The notes under the pieces: model-generated
Seen by the model: the letters and a program-made list of their open reading frames with translations, nothing else
Told to the model about the DNA's origin: nothing
Databases searched by the model: none
Position numbers and translations under genes: made by a program
Part shown: positions 24,543-34,682 of the stretch, piece by piece
Numbering within the stretch: the first letter of the stretch is position 1
Layout: the number at the start of each line of letters is the position of its first letter
Assembly: GCA_025358705.1 (NCBI GenBank)
Contig: JANYII010000016.1
Coordinates: 1 to 36,746 of the forward strand
Source of the DNA: Betaproteobacteria bacterium
GTDB taxonomy: Bacteria; Pseudomonadota; Gammaproteobacteria; Burkholderiales; SG8-39
DNA length: 36,746 nt
Direction: 5' to 3'

Positions 24543-25913
24543 ATGGATTCCCAGAGGCAAGCGATGATCCCGGGCAATTTCCTCAAACCGTTCATTATTT
24601 CCGCCGTGGCCCTGGCCGCGCCGCAGCTTTGCGCGCAGGTTCCCGTTCAGGCTTTCCTCGGGGTACTCAACACCAATCCGGCGGCCGCAAAAGCATCTCT
24701 CGCCCGGATCCGGGACGGCTGGCGCGACACCTACACAGCGCCGATGCTGGAACTGGTGGGCTTCGTGCCGGTGCTTTCCGTGCAGGAAGAGGTGATAGCG
24801 CAGATCGGCCGGGCGACCGGCCTTCGCTCGCGCGACCTGAACTCGCAGTATGAATGGCTCTGGGCACGCGACCCTGGCGAGCACCCGGACTACGCCGAGT
24901 TCAAGGCCTCGCTTTACGAGCAGGTCGATCCGCGCTTTCGCGAATACTTCGGCAAGGGCCGCAAGGCAACCATCCGCCTCGACGAAATCCGCTGGGGCGG
25001 GGTCTGGCGCGACGGCATTCCGCCGCTCAAGAATCCGAAAATGATCCCGGCGGCGCAGGCCACCTACCTCGCCGACGATAATGTCGTTTTCGGCGTCGCC
25101 ATCGACGGCGATGTGCGCGCCTATCCCAAGCGCATTCTTGCCTGGCACGAAATGGTCAAGGACCGGATCGCCGGCCGCGAGCTGAATGGCGTGTACTGCA
25201 CCTTGTGCGGTTCGATGATCCTTTACGACGCCACGGTCAACGGCGTCCATCACGAATTGGGGACCAGCGGCTTCCTCTATCGCTCAAACAAGCTGATGTA
25301 CGACCACGCGACCAAGTCGCTGTGGTCGACGCTTGGCGGCGAACCGGTTGTGGGTCCACTGGTCGGCAAGGGGATCGAACTGCAGACGCTACGCGTGGTA
25401 ACCACCACCTGGGGCGAATGGAAGAAGCGCCATCCCGGCACCACAGTGCTCGCCCTGGAGACCGGGCACGAGCGCGATTACTCTGAGGGTGCTGCCTATC
25501 GGGACTACTTTTCCACCGACCGCCTGATGTTCGGCGTGCCTAAGCTCGACACGCGGCTGCCCAACAAGGCCGAAGTGCTGGCGCTGCGCGCTTCGGGCAA
25601 GCCGGCCGACCAGCTTGCGATCGCGGCGGACTTTCTCGCCGCGAACCGCGTCTACCATGGCCGTATAGGCTCGCAACAGTTCGTGGTCCTGACCGACGCA
25701 TCCGGCGCCAACCGCGTCTACGAAAGCGCGAACCTGCGCTTTGCGACCTGGGATGGCGATTCCACGGCGCGCGACAGTTCCGGCGGGACCTGGAAGGTGA
25801 CCGAAGACGGGCTCACCGGACCCGGCGGCGCCTCGCTCAAGCGCCTGCCCGCGCACCGCGCCTTCTGGTTCGGCTGGTACGCCGCCTACCCTGCGACCCG
25901 GCTCGTGAAGTAA
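24543..25913 (+). CDS. DUF3179 domain-containing protein
   Basis: DGDVRAYPKRILAWHEMVKDRIAGRELNGVYCTLCGSMILYDATVNGVHHELGTSGFLYRSNKLMYDHATKSLWS. Confidence 0.9.
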   Translation: MDSQRQAMIPGNFLKPFIISAVALAAPQLCAQVPVQAFLGVLNTNPAAAKASLARIRDGWRDTYTAPMLELVGFVPVLSVQEEVIAQIGRATGLRSRDLNSQYEWLWARDPGEHPDYAEFKASLYEQVDPRFREYFGKGRKATIRLDEIRWGGVWRDGIPPLKNPKMIPAAQATYLADDNVVFGVAIDGDVRAYPKRILAWHEMVKDRIAGRELNGVYCTLCGSMILYDATVNGVHHELGTSGFLYRSNKLMYDHATKSLWSTLGGEPVVGPLVGKGIELQTLRVVTTTWGEWKKRHPGTTVLALETGHERDYSEGAAYRDYFSTDRLMFGVPKLDTRLPNKAEVLALRASGKPADQLAIAADFLAANRVYHGRIGSQQFVVLTDASGANRVYESANLRFATWDGDSTARDSSGGTWKVTEDGLTGPGGASLKRLPAHRAFWFGWYAAYPATRLVK

Positions 25914-26688
25914 GCGCAGCGGCGGACAGCAATCCCTCCGCGAGCCAGTTCCTCAGAAGCTGGGCGCCGCGCTGCGCGGCATGTTCACCGCCGGCGAATC
26001 TACGCAAGCCCGAGCAGATCTGCGCGAAATCCCGCCCGTGCTTCACAGCCCGCAGCGCCCAGGCTTCGTCCGCTTCCAGCACCCGGTAGCAAGGCTCGAA
26101 TCCCTTGCGCCACACGATCCATGACACCGCGGTCCGCCGCGGGCTCATTGCGATTTTGCGGCCACCCGCGCGCGCGGTCCGCCAGACCTGCGGCGCGTTG
26201 CTGTGCAGCACCAGCAGCTGCACCGACGGCTGCAGAACGAAGCGCAACGCCGGCCAGTCCGCTGGTGGCACGATCGCGAGTCGATCTACCTCCAGCAACG
26301 GCGCGTCCGCGGCATCGAAGGCCAGGCCGAGCGCCCATTCGAACTGCGCCAGTTCCGCAAGCGCCTGCCGATCGCGCCCACGCGAGGAATGTTGCAGGAA
26401 GCGCGCCAGTCCGGCGCCGTACCAGCGCAGATTCGTGTGCCGGGACGGATGCGCGGCGATATAAGCGCGCACGATCCGCGCGAATCTCTCCTCACCCAGG
26501 CGGGCCGCCAACCCGGGGTAGTCGTTACCCAGTACTTCGGCCAGGCGCAAGCGGTACGCGTTCGCGTATATCCTGAGACGCCGCGCGGCACTCGCCCGCC
26601 GCGTCGCCAGCATGGCGCGCTCCATCTTTCGGCCCGGCTTGTAGACGTGGTCCTGGAAAGCTAGCTGCAGGGAAGCAAGTTCTCTCAT
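25837..26688 (-). CDS. bufC: BufC/HvfC-like DUF2063 domain protein (partner of MNIO enzyme)
   Basis: LQLAFQDHVYKP...RRLRIYANAYRLRLAEVLGNDYPGLAARLGEERFARIVRAYIAAHPSRHTNLRWYGAGLARFL; adjacent to DUF692. Confidence 0.88.
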   Translation of the reverse strand: MRELASLQLAFQDHVYKPGRKMERAMLATRRASAARRLRIYANAYRLRLAEVLGNDYPGLAARLGEERFARIVRAYIAAHPSRHTNLRWYGAGLARFLQHSSRGRDRQALAELAQFEWALGLAFDAADAPLLEVDRLAIVPPADWPALRFVLQPSVQLLVLHSNAPQVWRTARAGGRKIAMSPRRTAVSWIVWRKGFEPCYRVLEADEAWALRAVKHGRDFAQICSGLRRFAGGEHAAQRGAQLLRNWLAEGLLSAAALTSRAGSQGRRRTSRTRRRGARAGA

Positions 26689-27506
26689 GCAGCTTTCTTT
26701 CGCAATACATTTCCCGAAATCGCGCGAGCACGGTCGAGTTCGAGCACTAACGTACCAAGCGGCGGTATCTTGTCGTCGCGCTCGATCATGGTCGGCACCG
26801 GCCCGAACCGCTGCAGGGCCTGTGCATACAGGTCCCACACCGGCCCGATCACCTTCGCATCGTGCGTGTCGATGATCAGGTCGCCGCAATTGTCGTGTCC
26901 GGCAAGATGGATCTGCCGGACGCGCGCGGCTGGAATGCCGTCGAGGAATTCGACTGGATCGAAGCCGTGGTTGAACGCGCTGACGTAGATGTTATTGATA
27001 TCAAGCAGGATGTCACAGTCGGCGTCGCGCGCCAGCGCGGCGAGAAAGTCCCACTCCGACATCGCCGATTTGCGATACGCGACGTAGCTTGAAACGTTCT
27101 CCAGCAGGATGCGACGGCCGAGGAAATCCTGCACCGTGCGCACCCGGCGCGCGACATGCCGCAGCGCCTCTTCGGTATAAGGCAGCGGCATCAGGTCGTG
27201 CAGGTTCCGGCCGCCGACGCCCGTCCAGCACAGGTGATCCGAGATCCATTCGGGCTCGACCCGCGCCGCCAGCGCTTTCAGCCCGGCGAGGTAACCACGG
27301 TCTAGCGAATCGATACTGCCGACCGACAGCGACACGCCATGCAGCACCACCGGATAGCGCTCGCGGATGCGCGTCAGGTAATGCAGCGGGCGGCCGCCGG
27401 GAACCATGTAGTTCTCGGACAGGGCCTCGAACCACTCCACGCGCGGGCTTGACTTGAGGATCGCCTCGTAATGCCTGGGACGCAGGCCGAGGCCGAAGCC
27501 CTTCAC
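26685..27506 (-). CDS. bufB: BufB/HvfB-like DUF692 (MNIO, multinuclear nonheme iron oxidase) protein
   Basis: GLGLRPRHYEAIL..VEWFEALSENYM; LHGVSLSVGS; EWISDHLCW; ILLENVSSYV; DILLDINNIYVSAFNHG; QIHLAGHD. Confidence 0.93.
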   Translation of the reverse strand: MKGFGLGLRPRHYEAILKSSPRVEWFEALSENYMVPGGRPLHYLTRIRERYPVVLHGVSLSVGSIDSLDRGYLAGLKALAARVEPEWISDHLCWTGVGGRNLHDLMPLPYTEEALRHVARRVRTVQDFLGRRILLENVSSYVAYRKSAMSEWDFLAALARDADCDILLDINNIYVSAFNHGFDPVEFLDGIPAARVRQIHLAGHDNCGDLIIDTHDAKVIGPVWDLYAQALQRFGPVPTMIERDDKIPPLGTLVLELDRARAISGNVLRKKAA

Positions 27507-27523: not shown

Positions 27524-27778
27524 CTACTTCTTCTTCATCTCGGCCTTCGCCTTGTCGCAGTCCGCCTTGCTCATCTCCTTGAAACCCTTGCCCCTGCATT
27601 CGTTCAGCCCCTTGCAGCCGTTGCCCGCGCCGCTGCAATCGCTGTGGCCTTTGCAGCTGTTCACGCCTTCGCACTTCACCTTGGCGGTCTGCGCGGCCAC
27701 AGGTCCGGCCGCCGTCATCGCGAATATGCCCGCCGCGGCCGTCGCCAGGGCCATTCCAGTCAGTTTCTTCAATTTCAT
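27524..27778 (-). CDS. bufA2: BUFA2-type periplasmic bufferin (six-Cys metallophore precursor)
   Basis: Signal peptide then KVKCEGVNSCKGHSDCSGAGNGCKGLNECRGKGFKEMSKADCDKAKAEMKKK; next to bufB/bufC. Confidence 0.88.
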   Translation of the reverse strand: MKLKKLTGMALATAAAGIFAMTAAGPVAAQTAKVKCEGVNSCKGHSDCSGAGNGCKGLNECRGKGFKEMSKADCDKAKAEMKKK

Positions 27779-27829: not shown

Positions 27830-27973
27830 TTACTTCTTCATCGGTTCCTTCTTCATCATTTCCTCTTTCTTCATCATTTCTTCCTTCTTCATCTGCTCGT
27901 CCTTGCTCATATCGCTGGCACAGCCGGCCAATGCCAGGCAACCCGCGATCACGAATGCGACTGATTTGTTCAT
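27830..27973 (-). CDS. Small (47 aa) Met/Lys/Glu-repeat lipoprotein, not in the supplied ORF track
   Basis: MNKSVAFVIAGCLALAGCASDMSKDEQMKKEEMMKKEEMMKKEPMKK*; lipobox LAGC; GGGAGGCAGG RBS-like sequence before ATG. Confidence 0.85.
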   Translation of the reverse strand: MNKSVAFVIAGCLALAGCASDMSKDEQMKKEEMMKKEEMMKKEPMKK

Positions 27974-28002
27974 CCTGCCTCCCTGGTTGAGTTTCATGGA
28001 TA

Positions 28003-28030
28003 AGACCTCCGGCGGGGCTAATTCCTTACA
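28003..28030 (-). promoter_or_regulatory. Putative ECF-type promoter TGTAAGGAAT-N14-GTCT for the bufferin operon
   Basis: Minus-strand -35-like 28021-28030, -10-like 28003-28006, 29 nt before the lipoprotein ATG. Confidence 0.6.
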
Positions 28031-29685: not shown

Positions 29686-30213
29686 ATGGCATTGTTACCC
29701 CGCAAGCCCGTCCCAGCGCTGGAATTCGACACCGTCGGCGGCGACCGCTGGTCGCTCGCCGCGCAGAAACCGCCGCAGTTCACAATGGTGGTGTTCTACC
29801 GCGGCTTGCACTGCCCAATCTGCAACCGCTACACAAGAGAATTGAACGGCATGATCGCCGACTACGACAAGCGCGGCGTTTCGACCGTCATCACGAGCAC
29901 CGACTCCCAGGAGCGTGCCGCCGAGGCTAAGACGAAGTGGGGGCTGCCGGATCTGACGGTTGGCTACGGCGTGACGATCGACAAGGCGCGTGAGTGGGGC
30001 CTGTACGTCTCGACCAGCCGCGGCAAGACCTCGGCCGGAATCGAAGAGCCGCCGCTGTTCGCAGAACCCGGCATTTTCCTCGTCAAGCCAGACGCGACGC
30101 TCTACTGGGCTTCCGTGTCCACAATGCCGTTCGCACGGCCACATTTCACGGATATCCTGGGTGCGATAGATTTCGCGGTCGGCAAGAATTACCCGGCGCG
30201 AGGCGAAGCGTGA
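29686..30213 (+). CDS. Peroxiredoxin-like / AhpC-TSA family protein
   Basis: MVVFYRGLHCPICNRYTRELNGMIADYDKRGVSTVITSTDSQERA. Confidence 0.9.
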   Translation: MALLPRKPVPALEFDTVGGDRWSLAAQKPPQFTMVVFYRGLHCPICNRYTRELNGMIADYDKRGVSTVITSTDSQERAAEAKTKWGLPDLTVGYGVTIDKAREWGLYVSTSRGKTSAGIEEPPLFAEPGIFLVKPDATLYWASVSTMPFARPHFTDILGAIDFAVGKNYPARGEA

Positions 30214-30905
30214 CGATCAGGGCGCTGACTTTCGACACGGGCGGGACCATCCTCGACTGGCACCGCGGCATTAGCGGCGCGTTCGCCGCCGCCGGCGCGT
30301 CGCGCGGCCTGAAGGCCGACTGGGCCGCGGTCACCAACGAGTACCGCCGCCGTTCGCTGAAGGGCATCGTCAATTCGGTGCAGCCCGCCTACAACTTCGA
30401 CGACGTGCACCGAAGCAAGCTGGATGAGGTAATCGCGGAGTTCAAGCTGGACGCGCTCACTGTCGCCGACCGCGATGCGATCTGGCGCACCTGGCACAAT
30501 CTGGATGCCTGGCCTGATTTCACGGCCGGTGCCGCGCGCCTGCGCAAGCGTTACGTGGTCGCCTCCTTCACGCTGCTCACGACTTCGCTCGTGATCGACG
30601 TCTCGAAGAAAAACGGTATCGACTGGGACGCGATCATTTCCTGCGAAATGATCGGCATCTACAAGACGCGACCCGAGGCGTATCGCACCGCCGCGAAGTG
30701 GCTGCAACTGGAGCCCGCCGAAATCCTGATGGTCGCCTGCCACAATTTCGATCTCGACGCGGCGCGCGCCTGCGGCTACCAGACCGCGTTCGTGCGGCGG
30801 CCCGACGAATGGGGCCCCGGCGGCCCTCCCGATCCGAATGCGAATCCTGCGTGCACGCTCGTGGTGGATGGATTCGCCGAGCTGGCAGACAAGCTGGGCG
30901 CGTAA
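30210..30905 (+). CDS. HAD family hydrolase (haloacid dehalogenase type II-like)
   Basis: IRALTFDTGGTILDWHRGI; LTTSLVIDVSKKNGIDWDAIISCEMIGIYKTRPEAY; MVACHNFDLDAARACGYQTAFV. GTG start overlapping the previous TGA. Confidence 0.88.
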   Translation: MTIRALTFDTGGTILDWHRGISGAFAAAGASRGLKADWAAVTNEYRRRSLKGIVNSVQPAYNFDDVHRSKLDEVIAEFKLDALTVADRDAIWRTWHNLDAWPDFTAGAARLRKRYVVASFTLLTTSLVIDVSKKNGIDWDAIISCEMIGIYKTRPEAYRTAAKWLQLEPAEILMVACHNFDLDAARACGYQTAFVRRPDEWGPGGPPDPNANPACTLVVDGFAELADKLGA

Positions 30906-30998: not shown

Positions 30999-31382
30999 AT
31001 GCGAATCTGGCTGAAGCATGCTCTCGCCGTTCTAACGCTTTTTATTGCCTTTGGCGCAGCGGCGGGCGAACAGGACTACGACAAGGCCGCGTTCGAAAAG
31101 TCCCTGGCCGAAGGCAAACCGGTGATTGTCGAATTTTTCGCCGACTGGTGCCCGACCTGCAAGGCGCAAAAGCCCATCGTGCAGGAGCTGATGCGCGACG
31201 CGAAAATGAAGGAGGTTACGCTGTTCGTGGCCGACTACGATAAGGAAAGGGATCTGAAAAAGGCGCTGCGCGTGTCCCAGCAGAGCACTTTCGTCGTGTT
31301 CAAGGGCGGCAAGGAGGTCGCGCGCTCGACCGGCCAGACCCGTAAAGCGGATCTGGAAGCGACTTTCGCCAAGGCAAACTGA
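30999..31382 (+). CDS. Periplasmic thioredoxin-fold protein (DsbD C-terminal-like)
   Basis: Signal peptide; PVIVEFFADWCPTCKAQKPIVQELM; cis-Pro region QQSTFVVFKGGKEV. Confidence 0.93.
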   Translation: MRIWLKHALAVLTLFIAFGAAAGEQDYDKAAFEKSLAEGKPVIVEFFADWCPTCKAQKPIVQELMRDAKMKEVTLFVADYDKERDLKKALRVSQQSTFVVFKGGKEVARSTGQTRKADLEATFAKAN

Positions 31383-31406
31383 AGGCTTGCACGGGACGCC
31401 GGCCTG

Positions 31407-32135
31407 ATGGATTTCGGGCCCGGTACTTACGGGCTGGGTTATGTCGCCGGGCTGCTGACGACGCTTTCCCCCTGCGTCCTGCCCCTGGTGCCGATCGTCG
31501 CCGCCACCGCGCTGGCGGCGCACCGGCTCGGACCCTGCGCGCTTGCGCTCGGCCTGACGGTCTCGTTTGCCGCAGTCGGCATATTCGTTGCGGCGCTCGG
31601 CGCTTCGCTCGGCCTGGACCAGGCGCTCTTCCGCAACATCGCCGCAACCGTTCTGATCGCGTTCGGCGTCCTGTTGCTTTCGACCAGGCTTCAGGAGCGT
31701 ATCGCGACGGCGGCGTCAGGCTTGAGCGCAGCGGGCGATGGCTTGATTGTCCGCCTGAATCTGGACGGCCTGGCGGGTCAGTTCATCGTCGGCCTGGTGC
31801 TGGGCATCGTCTGGTCGCCTTGCGTCGGCCCCACGCTCGGGGCCGCGACGACGCTGGCGTCGCAGGGCCAGAGCCTGGCGCAGATTTCCCTCCTCATGGT
31901 GATTTTCGGCCTTGGCGCCGGCACCCCGCTGGTCGCGCTCGGCTCAGTGTCGCGCGCCACCATGATCCGGCTGCGCGGCAGCATGCTCTCGACGGGCAAG
32001 TTTGGAAAATTCGTACTTGGCATTGTTCTCGTGCTGCTGGGCATCGCCATCCTGAGCGGATTCGACAAGTCCTTCGAGGCCTGGGCCGTCGGCATCTATC
32101 CGGATTGGCTTAACGATCTGACTACTCGCTTTTGA
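31407..32135 (+). CDS. CcdA/DsbD-like transmembrane thiol reductant transporter
   Basis: YVAGLLTTLSPCVLPLVPIVAATAL; VGLVLGIVWSPCVGPTLGAATTLA, paired Cys-Pro TM segments. Confidence 0.93.
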   Translation: MDFGPGTYGLGYVAGLLTTLSPCVLPLVPIVAATALAAHRLGPCALALGLTVSFAAVGIFVAALGASLGLDQALFRNIAATVLIAFGVLLLSTRLQERIATAASGLSAAGDGLIVRLNLDGLAGQFIVGLVLGIVWSPCVGPTLGAATTLASQGQSLAQISLLMVIFGLGAGTPLVALGSVSRATMIRLRGSMLSTGKFGKFVLGIVLVLLGIAILSGFDKSFEAWAVGIYPDWLNDLTTRF

Positions 32136-32149
32136 ACACCGACCAATAA

Positions 32150-32833
32150 TCAGCCCCTAAGCGCACCCGCCACACTGTCCACCACTGCGGCATTGGCGCC
32201 GACGATCCCGACGCTGCCCCAGCGCAGCGGCACCACGCTCGCGTACATGCCGTCATGTGCGGCGCGCGCCCGCGCGGGCATGGGCGTGTCCGGCATGATC
32301 AGCAACGTCACCTTGTCCTGCGGCACCATCAACACCACGTGGTAGGCGGTACCGCCCTGAAACGGGCAGGGGCCGATGTGCATGACCTTGCCGATCCCGT
32401 CCAGGCGTTCGAGCGGCAGCGAATCGGCCAGAATACGCGCGGCTTCGGCGCGCGGCATCGCCCCCATCATGATCGACTTGGCCTCGTCCTTCATCACAAA
32501 ATCGATGCAGGCCATCGCCATCGGATCATCCCGCCCGCGCCACGCATACAGTCCAAGTCCGATCGCGCCCACCGCCACTGCTGCGGCGGCAAGCAGACGC
32601 CGCCTGTCCTGGCGAGGCGTTTCGATCGAGCCGGTTGCCGGCAACGTTTCGAGAAGCCGATCCGCGAAGCGCGCGGGAACCGGCGCCTCGAGGGCACCGC
32701 GCAGTTGGACCTCGAAATCCGCGTGCCCCTCGATCAGCTCGGCACAGGCGATGCAGGTCATGCGGTGTTCGCGCATCGCATCGTTCTCGCCGTCTCCAGA
32801 CAGAAGGATGCGCCGGTAATCCAGGCAATTCAT
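32150..32833 (-). CDS. DUF3379-type putative anti-sigma factor
   Basis: MNCLDYRRILLSGDGENDAMREHRMTCIACAELIEGH; single TM LLAAAAVAVGAIGLGLYAW; overlaps the sigma gene by 4 nt. Confidence 0.85.
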   Translation of the reverse strand: MNCLDYRRILLSGDGENDAMREHRMTCIACAELIEGHADFEVQLRGALEAPVPARFADRLLETLPATGSIETPRQDRRRLLAAAAVAVGAIGLGLYAWRGRDDPMAMACIDFVMKDEAKSIMMGAMPRAEAARILADSLPLERLDGIGKVMHIGPCPFQGGTAYHVVLMVPQDKVTLLIMPDTPMPARARAAHDGMYASVVPLRWGSVGIVGANAAVVDSVAGALRG

Positions 32834-33342
32834 GACCGCTCTCCTTTGCGCTCTTTCGCCCCAGCAGGCAGCACCAGCCGCTTCAGCGCCTGGCGGGCGC
32901 GCGTGAGCCGCGTCATCACCGCCCCCTCGGTCGTCTCCAACATTCTCGCGATCTCGGCGCAGGTGAATCCGCCGAGCACCTGCAGCGCCAGCGGCTCCGC
33001 ATACGATACCGGGAGCGCCATCAGCGCATCGCGCATTTCCACGGCAAAAGGGCTGGATCGCTCGTCGATAACATCGATTTCGGCCGCATCCACCCCGCCA
33101 TGGCGCGCGTCCTGGGCTGTCGCGCGATGGAATTCGTTCTTGACGATCGAGAACAACCAGGATTTCACCGCCGCCCGGTCCCTGACCTGGGGGAATGCGC
33201 GCCAGCCACGCAGCAGCGCCTCCTGGACGACGTCTTCGGCCTGCTGCCGGTTGCGCGTCAGCCAATAGGCATATCGAAACAGGTCGCCGGCATGCGCCCT
33301 GACCGCGTCGTCGAACGAGACCCCGCCACTGTCGGCGTTCAC
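32830..33342 (-). CDS. ECF-type RNA polymerase sigma factor (second of tandem pair)
   Basis: LFRYAYWLTRNRQQAEDVVQEALLRGWRAF (sigma2); LPVSYAEPLALQVLGGFTCAEIARMLETTEGAVMTRLTRARQAL (sigma4). GTG start 33342. Confidence 0.92.
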   Translation of the reverse strand: MNADSGGVSFDDAVRAHAGDLFRYAYWLTRNRQQAEDVVQEALLRGWRAFPQVRDRAAVKSWLFSIVKNEFHRATAQDARHGGVDAAEIDVIDERSSPFAVEMRDALMALPVSYAEPLALQVLGGFTCAEIARMLETTEGAVMTRLTRARQALKRLVLPAGAKERKGERS

Positions 33343-33869
33343 TGCGCCGTCCAGCCCGCGGGATACGATTTCCGGATCCGCGACCGCGCGCGGTGCAGCA
33401 TGACCGCGCAGTTGGACTTGGAGACGGCCAGAGCGCGGCAGGTTTCGACCGTGTTCAGCCCCATGACCGCGCGCAGGAAAAACGCTTCCCCCGTGCGCCC
33501 GGGCAGTTGGCATATGCAACGCTCAAGCTCTTCCAGGCGCCGCCGACGCTCCAGCGCCTTCTCCGGATCGTCATAGGAGGAAAAATGCGAGCCATCGGAC
33601 TCCAGGGGCGTACCGTCGTTGTCCATTTCATGCCACTGGTCCCGGACGGACCGTCTGACGCAATCGACGATCTTATGCTTGAGGATGCCGGTGAGCCAGC
33701 TATAAAGCGATGAGCCCCCGGTGAACGTGCCGATATTCTCGATCGCAGCGAGCAGCGTTTCCTGTACCGCATCCTCGGCGTGCGCGGCATTGACCAGACG
33801 GGACCGGGCGAAGCGGACCAGTTTCGGGCGGTATTGCACCAGGTCTTCGGCTCGATGAGCGGCGGTCAT
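33339..33869 (-). CDS. ECF-type RNA polymerase sigma factor (first of tandem pair)
   Basis: LVRFARSRLVNAAHAEDAVQETLLAAIENIGTFTGGSSLYSWLTGILKHKIVDCVRR; LPGRTGEAFFLRAVMGLNTVETCRALAVSKSNCAVMLHRARSRIRK. Confidence 0.93.
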   Translation of the reverse strand: MTAAHRAEDLVQYRPKLVRFARSRLVNAAHAEDAVQETLLAAIENIGTFTGGSSLYSWLTGILKHKIVDCVRRSVRDQWHEMDNDGTPLESDGSHFSSYDDPEKALERRRRLEELERCICQLPGRTGEAFFLRAVMGLNTVETCRALAVSKSNCAVMLHRARSRIRKSYPAGWTAQ

Positions 33870-33877
33870 TGAAGAAT

Positions 33878-33905
33878 AGACCCGGCCGCGGGCCCATTCC
33901 TTACA
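33878..33905 (-). promoter_or_regulatory. Putative ECF-type autoregulatory promoter TGTAAGGAAT-N14-GTCT
   Basis: Minus-strand -35-like 33896-33905, -10-like 33878-33881; same 14-nt spacing as 28003-28030; 8 nt before the sigma ATG. Confidence 0.6.
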
Positions 33906-33932
33906 ATGCGAACTCCCAAAAAGGAGAAATGC

Positions 33933-34682
33933 ATGAAGTCATTCGATCTTTCCGGCCGCGTCGCGATCGTCACCGGCGGCAACGGCGGCATTGGGCAGGG
34001 CATGGCGCGCGGACTCGCCGCGGCGGGCGCAAAGGTGATTGTCGCGGGACGCAACGCGCAGAAGAGCGCTGCCGCGGCGAAAGAGATCCGCGGCGACGCG
34101 ATCGAGGTCGACGTCAAGAGCGAAGAATCGCTCAAGGCCCTCATCGCCGGGACGGTCAAGCGCCACGGCAGGCTCGACATCCTCGTCAACAACGCCGGCA
34201 TCAACATCCGCAAGCAGCCGCAGGAATACACGCTCGCCGAGTACCACGAGGTCATGAACACCAACCTCACCAGCGCGTTCAACCTCTCGCAGCTCGCCTA
34301 CCCCGAGATGAAGAAGGCCGGCGGCGGCAAGATCATCAACATCGGCTCGATGATGTCGATTTTCGGCGCGTCGTTCACCACGCCCTACGCCACCTCCAAG
34401 GGCGGCATCGTGCAGATGAGCCGCGCCATGGCCTGCGCCTGGGCGAAGGACAACATCCAGGTAAACAGCGTGCTGCCGGGCTGGATCGACACCGAACTCA
34501 CGCGCGGCGCGCGCCAGCAGATAGACGGATTGCACGAGCGCGTCCTCGCGCGCACGCCCGCCGGGCGCTGGGGCGATCCGGGCGACTTCGCGGGCATTGC
34601 GGTTTTTCTTGCGAGCGCTGCTTCTGATTTCCTGACTGGAACTGCTATTCCCGTGGACGGAGGGTATTCAATCCAGGGATAG
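33933..34682 (+). CDS. SDR family oxidoreductase (gluconate/glucose dehydrogenase-like)
   Basis: GRVAIVTGGNGGIGQGMARGLAAAGAKVIVAGR; LVNNAGIN; YATSKGG; C-terminal FLTGTAIPVDGGYSIQG. Confidence 0.95.
   Translation: MKSFDLSGRVAIVTGGNGGIGQGMARGLAAAGAKVIVAGRNAQKSAAAAKEIRGDAIEVDVKSEESLKALIAGTVKRHGRLDILVNNAGINIRKQPQEYTLAEYHEVMNTNLTSAFNLSQLAYPEMKKAGGGKIINIGSMMSIFGASFTTPYATSKGGIVQMSRAMACAWAKDNIQVNSVLPGWIDTELTRGARQQIDGLHERVLARTPAGRWGDPGDFAGIAVFLASAASDFLTGTAIPVDGGYSIQG

Follow-up and report, generated by a model that had tools for sequence, protein, structure and literature searches.

Putative capture of a sigmaE-type ECF sigma factor by a sigma factor-DUF3379 pair, a predicted composite switch linked to bufferin-like genes

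Two ECF sigma factor genes and a gene encoding a DUF3379 membrane protein form a tightly packed triad in the window, the 36,746-nucleotide stretch of betaproteobacterial DNA (contig JANYII010000016.1) that was analysed here. We consider it probable that this triad works as a composite ECF switch, in which a base pair of sigma 2 and DUF3379 has captured a further sigma factor, sigma 1, and both sigma genes lie behind a shared promoter (Table 1). The source genome is a fragmented draft of 3 Mb that is 90%-complete. The initial annotation had described two different, complete ECF sigma factors in tandem with 4-nt overlaps, and this description holds: the three ORFs are intact on the minus strand, the overlaps are exactly GTGA (33339-33342) between sigma 1 and sigma 2 and ATGA (32830-32833) between sigma 2 and the DUF3379 gene, and both sigma 1 (176 aa, ATG start) and sigma 2 (170 aa, GTG start) contain Sigma70_r2 and r4_2 domains above the Pfam cut-offs. 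The best NCBIfam match is TIGR02943 for sigma 1 (138.5 bits, cut-off 162.2) and PRK12517 for sigma 2 (124 bits, cut-off 197), while the 227-aa DUF3379 protein matches PF11859 from end to end (E 1.7e-20, 73.7 bits, cut-off 33.2). With a DUF3379 gene overlapping the 3' end of sigma 2 and a GTAAGG-N16-GGTCT motif before the operon, the locus has the make-up of a PRK12517-like sigma factor and DUF3379 pair.

Table 1. Genes of the triad and of the predicted regulon operon in the window, with their putative promoter motifs
Feature	Coordinates	Strand	Evidence
Promoter motif TGTAAGGAATGGGCCCGCGGCCGGGTCTATT before sigma 1	33875..33905	-	motif search, relatives' upstream sequences
Sigma 1, sigmaE/MseR (TIGR02943-like) type ECF without zf-HC2 partner	33339..33869	-	profile matches, neighbourhood comparison, tree
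Sigma 2, PRK12517-like ECF; GTG start inside sigma 1 stop (GTGA)	32830..33342	-	
DUF3379 membrane anti-sigma (predicted)	32150..32833	-	PF11859 match, motif, model
Second motif copy TGTAAGGAATTAGCCCCGCCGGAGGTCTTAT before bufferin-like operon	28000..28030	-	motif search
47-aa Met/Lys-rich lipoprotein, first gene of predicted regulon operon	27830..27973	-	
84-aa Cys-rich secreted peptide, candidate MNIO substrate (bufferin-like)	27524..27778	-	no Pfam match
MNIO enzyme (MbnB_TglH_ChrH, formerly DUF692)	26685..27506	-	E 1e-113
DUF2063 partner protein of MNIO; ATGA overlap with MNIO gene	25837..26688	-	

DUF3379 is present in 14 of the 98 genomes of the window's family. Six of these carry the triad. 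Besides the window genome they are G060, G067 and G068, which share its genus, and G040 and G041, which belong to a second one, so the three-gene order noted in the window recurs. Sigma 1 and sigma 2, as well as sigma 2 and DUF3379, abut or share a few nucleotides in all six triads; in G067 the DUF3379 gene is divided between two contig ends. The second triad genus also includes G042, which has sigma 2 and DUF3379 but no sigma 1 and in which the promoter immediately precedes sigma 2, and the pair stands without sigma 1 at nine further loci in five other family genera. Across the class, 30 DUF3379 loci were read: a single sigma 2-type sigma factor is found at 28, and sigma 1 precedes sigma 2 and DUF3379 at none. 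Since the pair is common and sigma 1 was found in front of it in two genera, the triad is a local derivative of the pair. The arrangement is more than chance, as its order and short-overlap junctions recur and sigma 1 is under purifying selection. At four loci from three other genera (L113, L114, L119 and L120), sigma 2-DUF3379 is adjoined by genes encoding CAAKNPCAAK repeats arranged about a CxxCH haem motif.

A putative promoter motif of the form TGTAAGG-N16-GGTCTNAT, which the initial annotation had overlooked, precedes sigma 2 where the family has the pair alone and sigma 1 where it has the triad, and it never lies between sigma 1 and sigma 2 in the family DUF3379 loci with readable upstream sequence. 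This placement suggests that sigma 1 was inserted between an existing, autoregulatory promoter and sigma 2. The initial annotation had sigma 2 and DUF3379 occupying the place of a zf-HC2 gene behind sigma 1; the reverse appears to be the case, sigma 1 having entered a widespread pair that had its own promoter. The sites in the window read TGTAAGGAAT-N13-GGTCTATT immediately before sigma 1 and TGTAAGGAAT-N13-GGTCTTAT before the operon at 25.8-28.0 kb. In the 3 Mb genome there are two matches to the pattern TGTAAGGAATN{13,17}TCT, both in the window, while the reversed control and shuffles of the window gave none. Allowing at most one mismatch, the motif has 24 sites in 12 of the 14 genomes with DUF3379 and none in 14 genomes without it, several of which carry sigma 1-type pairs; in the other two DUF3379-bearing genomes, G068 and G040, it is present with two mismatches. 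Many of the GTAAGG matches that fell within sigma 1-type genes were discarded as coding sequence (EICKEL); among 12 order-wide matches, 4 belonged to this group.

In the window, G060 and G068, 5 nt separate the end of the 31-base motif from the ATG of sigma 1, and in G040 and G041 the -10 element is equally close. In Neisseria the sigmaE +1 is six nt after the -10 (PMC2893595), and by analogy the sigma 1 message would start at the A of its ATG and be leaderless. Where sigma 2 is solitary, its leader is roughly 45-60 nt long. A short-chain dehydrogenase gene (33906-34682), also close in G060 and G067, diverges from sigma 1 at a distance of 36 nt, so that the promoters of the two genes overlap each other's starts. 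At the other end of the triad, genes for a secreted thioredoxin and a CcdA-like protein (30999-32135) converge on the DUF3379 gene, 14 nt away, a neighbourhood that is not conserved in G060 or G068.

The operon behind the second motif copy has the order lipoprotein, Cys-rich peptide, MNIO, DUF2063, which is the layout of bufferin clusters. Such clusters aid growth under copper stress (PMC12452194). In genomes with the solitary pair the motif is also oriented away from sigma 2 and towards bufferin/MNIO operons; in the second triad genus the bufferin/MNIO operon has no clear copy of the GGTCT motif. Sigma 2 and DUF3379 very probably control both the triad operon and the bufferin-like operon. DUF3179 genes recur near sigma 2-DUF3379 loci (24543-25913 in the window and L116:2990-4160), and in G004 such a gene directly follows a sequence that matches the promoter motif exactly.

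Pfam classes DUF3379 as a family of unknown function, and a literature search on it found no paper. The initial annotation had called the protein anti-sigma-like, which stands, and had treated it as an alternative to a zf-HC2 protein, which does not, since its own N-terminus (HRMTCIAC) contains the HxxxCxxC zinc motif of ZAS anti-sigma factors. In an AlphaFold model (mean pLDDT 92) there are helices between residues 3 and 63, a long helix at 73-99 is interpreted as spanning the membrane, and the C-terminal domain is of the alpha/beta type, giving a layout of a ZAS-like N-terminal domain (about 1-64), a transmembrane helix (about 73-99) and a Met-rich periplasmic domain. The family profile weakly matches the anti-sigma factor RsiW over the N-terminus (E 0.037), and a PDB fold search with the model gave no match below E 0.078. 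Both features of a zinc-type (ZAS/class I) membrane anti-sigma factor, HxxxCxxC and one transmembrane helix, are present, and DUF3379 looks like a membrane-bound member of the ZAS-like proteins rather than an alternative to them. The DUF3379 proteins of some class members (L121, L122, L123 and L125) do not contain HxxxCxxC and are still paired with a sigma 2-type gene. The periplasmic domain contains 11-12 Met residues in the window's genus, 7-12 in the other triad genus and 0-4 in solitary family members, and is also Met-rich in G042, which is without sigma 1. Such a composition would fit a metal as the signal sensed by this domain, though the richness in Met may be unrelated to metal.

Sigma factors of the sigma 1 type had been said to be followed normally by a small zf-HC2 gene that is missing here, and the relatives of sigma 1 agree: a small ZAS (zf-HC2) gene lies directly 3' of the sigma 1-type gene at 29 of 29 loci, and at seven of seven further loci (36 in all), taken from the window's family, Oxalobacteraceae, Methylophilaceae and small genomes of the order. 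The ZAS partner in these relatives has the spacing C4-H30-C34-C37, which is that reported for MseR of Neisseria (PMC2893595). In the window the small MseR-type gene downstream of sigma 1 has been lost, and sigma 2 follows at once. The initial annotation had also considered that a zf-HC2 partner of sigma 1 might be encoded elsewhere, or that one of the sigma factors might be decayed. No orphan zf-HC2 gene was found in the draft genome, and the sole zf-HC2 gene over the cut-off, on contig C62, adjoins a sigma factor 45% identical to sigma 1, with which it forms a complete paralogous pair. Decay of sigma 1 is not supported either, as the core-binding residues of region 2, including the motif AEDAVQE, are retained and omega, calculated from codon differences, is 0.23-0.27 for sigma 1, compared with 0.14-0.18 for sigma 2 and 0.18-0.27 for DUF3379. 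Purifying selection therefore acts on sigma 1 despite its rapid evolution.

The six triad sigma 1 proteins form one group in the tree (support 86/93; 99% of bootstrap trees), which is placed among ZAS-paired members and has longer branches than the paired copies. The paired rows nearest to them by path are the g24 copies; a HAD gene follows the pair in g24, and a HAD homologue is found in the window at 30213-30905. The HAD and thioredoxin/CcdA genes, which in the window are neighbours of the triad, lie in G067 next to an ECF gene with an NrsF-like membrane gene (L079:1546-2118). Among 73 conserved columns, defined as those kept in at least 80% of 35 ZAS-paired sigma 1-type proteins, 41, among them the AED.VQE block of region 2, are retained by five or more of the six triad proteins, and 12 have disappeared from five or more. 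Many of the lost columns belong to the linker between sigma2 and sigma4 (F, G, P, W), to the beginning of sigma4 or to the C-terminus, and we infer that they reflect release from binding by an MseR-type protein. In the triad sigma 1 proteins of the window's genus, a conserved W in the region 4.2 recognition helix is replaced by A. The accelerated evolution of sigma 1 may represent relaxation and not a switch of partner. In G073 a complete sigma 1-type and zf-HC2 pair (L109:2688-3299, contig C85) is located directly behind the same motif, approximately 19 kb from DUF3379, and seems to be an independent example of an ECF circuit that has come under the control of a second one.

The consensus for Neisseria sigmaE promoters, GTMAGBWTT-N12/13-CGTCTAAH (PMC2893595), is nearly identical to the triad motif. 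In small genomes of the same order, GTAAGGTTT-N12-CGTCTAA precedes a thioredoxin-MsrA fusion gene (msrAB), as in Neisseria, and these genomes carry a sigma 1-type sigma factor with an MseR-like ZAS neighbour. From the near match of the Neisseria consensus and the msrAB promoters of these genomes, the sigma 1 and sigma 2 families appear to read closely similar promoters. The idea that the motif is exclusive to sigma 2 was dropped because of this similarity, and what is kept is that the motif tracks DUF3379 within the family. A free sigma 1 with the ancestral preference would then drive its own operon without a brake, so that either DUF3379 restrains sigma 1 or the specificity of sigma 1 has changed. 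Such a change may have occurred in the window's genus, given the substitution of Trp by Ala in the recognition helix, in which case sigma 1 may use a different promoter and would do no harm when unrestrained. A candidate sigma 1-specific promoter, GTAAG-N17-CGACTA, seen before a canonical sigma 1 locus and once each in two g24 genomes, is absent from the triad genomes, and no sigma 1 regulon was therefore identified.

In the composite switch that we favour, DUF3379, with its zinc-type cytosolic domain and its periplasmic sensor domain, would bind sigma 2 and keep it inactive. Sensing by the periplasmic domain, probably of copper or another metal, or else of thiol or Met oxidation, would release sigma 2, which would then transcribe from the TGTAAGG-N16-GGTCTNAT promoters of its own operon and of the lipoprotein/bufferin-like/MNIO/DUF2063 operon. 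In the common ancestor of the two genera, an ECF sigma factor of the sigmaE/MseR type would have been captured between the promoter and sigma 2 without its MseR partner, and its synthesis would now be under the sigma 2 and DUF3379 promoter. Because the sigma 1 family recognizes a nearly identical promoter, DUF3379 would most likely be the sole brake on sigma 1 too, and one anti-sigma factor gating two sigma factors would create a steep positive-feedback switch. It is plausible on gene content that DUF3379 holds both sigma factors, as the initial annotation had suggested. The binding of sigma 1 by DUF3379 is the weakest step of this explanation, and we give it slightly less than an even chance. 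The complete picture, of one DUF3379 protein clamping two ECF sigma factors of different subfamilies that use the same promoter, with a captured orphan of the sigmaE type and a single amplifying switch over metal-buffering peptide genes, is put forward tentatively.

A possible alternative, though a somewhat doubtful one, is a feed-forward cascade in which sigma 1 is not bound by DUF3379, is made only once sigma 2 is freed, and directs a second gene set with an altered promoter preference and no anti-sigma factor of its own. The loss of the ZAS partner and of residues conserved in ZAS-paired relatives, the changed -35 recognition helix in the window's genus and the inferred leaderless start of sigma 1 directly at the promoter all agree with it, as does the G073 pair, an independent sigma 1-type gene under sigma 2-type control. 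However, the promoter search gave no sigma 1-specific site, and a free sigma 1 retaining the preference of its family would lock the operon on.

Control of sigma 1 in trans by the zf-HC2 protein encoded on contig C62 is unlikely. That gene exists and its neighbour resembles sigma 1, but the pair is already complete by itself, and the 12 columns lost from the triad proteins, many in the linker and C-terminus, are those conserved where a ZAS partner is present. That sigma 1 is a decaying passenger is very unlikely; its fast divergence, and its absence from G042, where the promoter abuts sigma 2, would be expected of one, but the gene is intact in six genomes with an omega of about 0.25 and AEDAVQE kept. 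Least likely is a heteromeric sigma factor, with sigma 1 and sigma 2 acting jointly at one promoter in the manner of SigO and RsoA of Bacillus subtilis. The overlapping genes of the triad suggest coupled production, but a bipartite sigma factor of this type is not supported: the sigma regions are divided between SigO and RsoA, whereas sigma 1 and sigma 2 each have a complete region 2 and region 4, and sigma 2 is without sigma 1 in most genomes.

The composite switch would give DUF3379 a concrete predicted role, as the anti-sigma factor of a specific promoter and regulon. The family also offers a natural experiment in ECF partner change, since it allows a direct comparison between paired relatives, triads and a lineage that has no sigma 1. 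Should the brake prove to be shared, this would be the second documented kind of one anti-sigma factor over two sigma factors after FpvR, and also a case of promoter convergence between two ECF subfamilies.

Among known systems, sigmaE (NMB2144) and MseR (NMB2145) of Neisseria (PMC2893595) are similar in the homology of sigma 1, the ZAS partner of its relatives, the promoter match and autoregulation, but MseR is absent here and the anti-sigma factor of the operon is predicted to be DUF3379, a membrane protein whose proper partner is a different sigma factor. The pairs of a PRK12517-like ECF sigma factor and DUF3379 share the gene order, the overlap and the upstream promoter motif, and differ in that a second ECF gene lies here between the promoter and sigma 2. 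Caulobacter sigmaF/NrsF and the bufferin (MNIO) clusters (PMC3511200, PMC12452194) likewise link an ECF sigma factor to MNIO/bufferin genes and metal stress, but with NrsF instead of DUF3379 and a single sigma factor; in the passages of PMC12452194 that were consulted, the anti-sigma factor named near bufferin clusters is NrsF and not DUF3379. The closest parallel in working is FpvR of Pseudomonas aeruginosa, one membrane anti-sigma factor that inhibits FpvI and PvdS, which are 34.7% identical (PMC4256889). One membrane anti-sigma factor over two dissimilar ECF sigma factors is thus already known, with binding shown for FpvR. What appears to be new is the architecture and the families: FpvR, FpvI and PvdS belong to other families with TonB-type signalling, whereas here three overlapping genes are combined in one operon.
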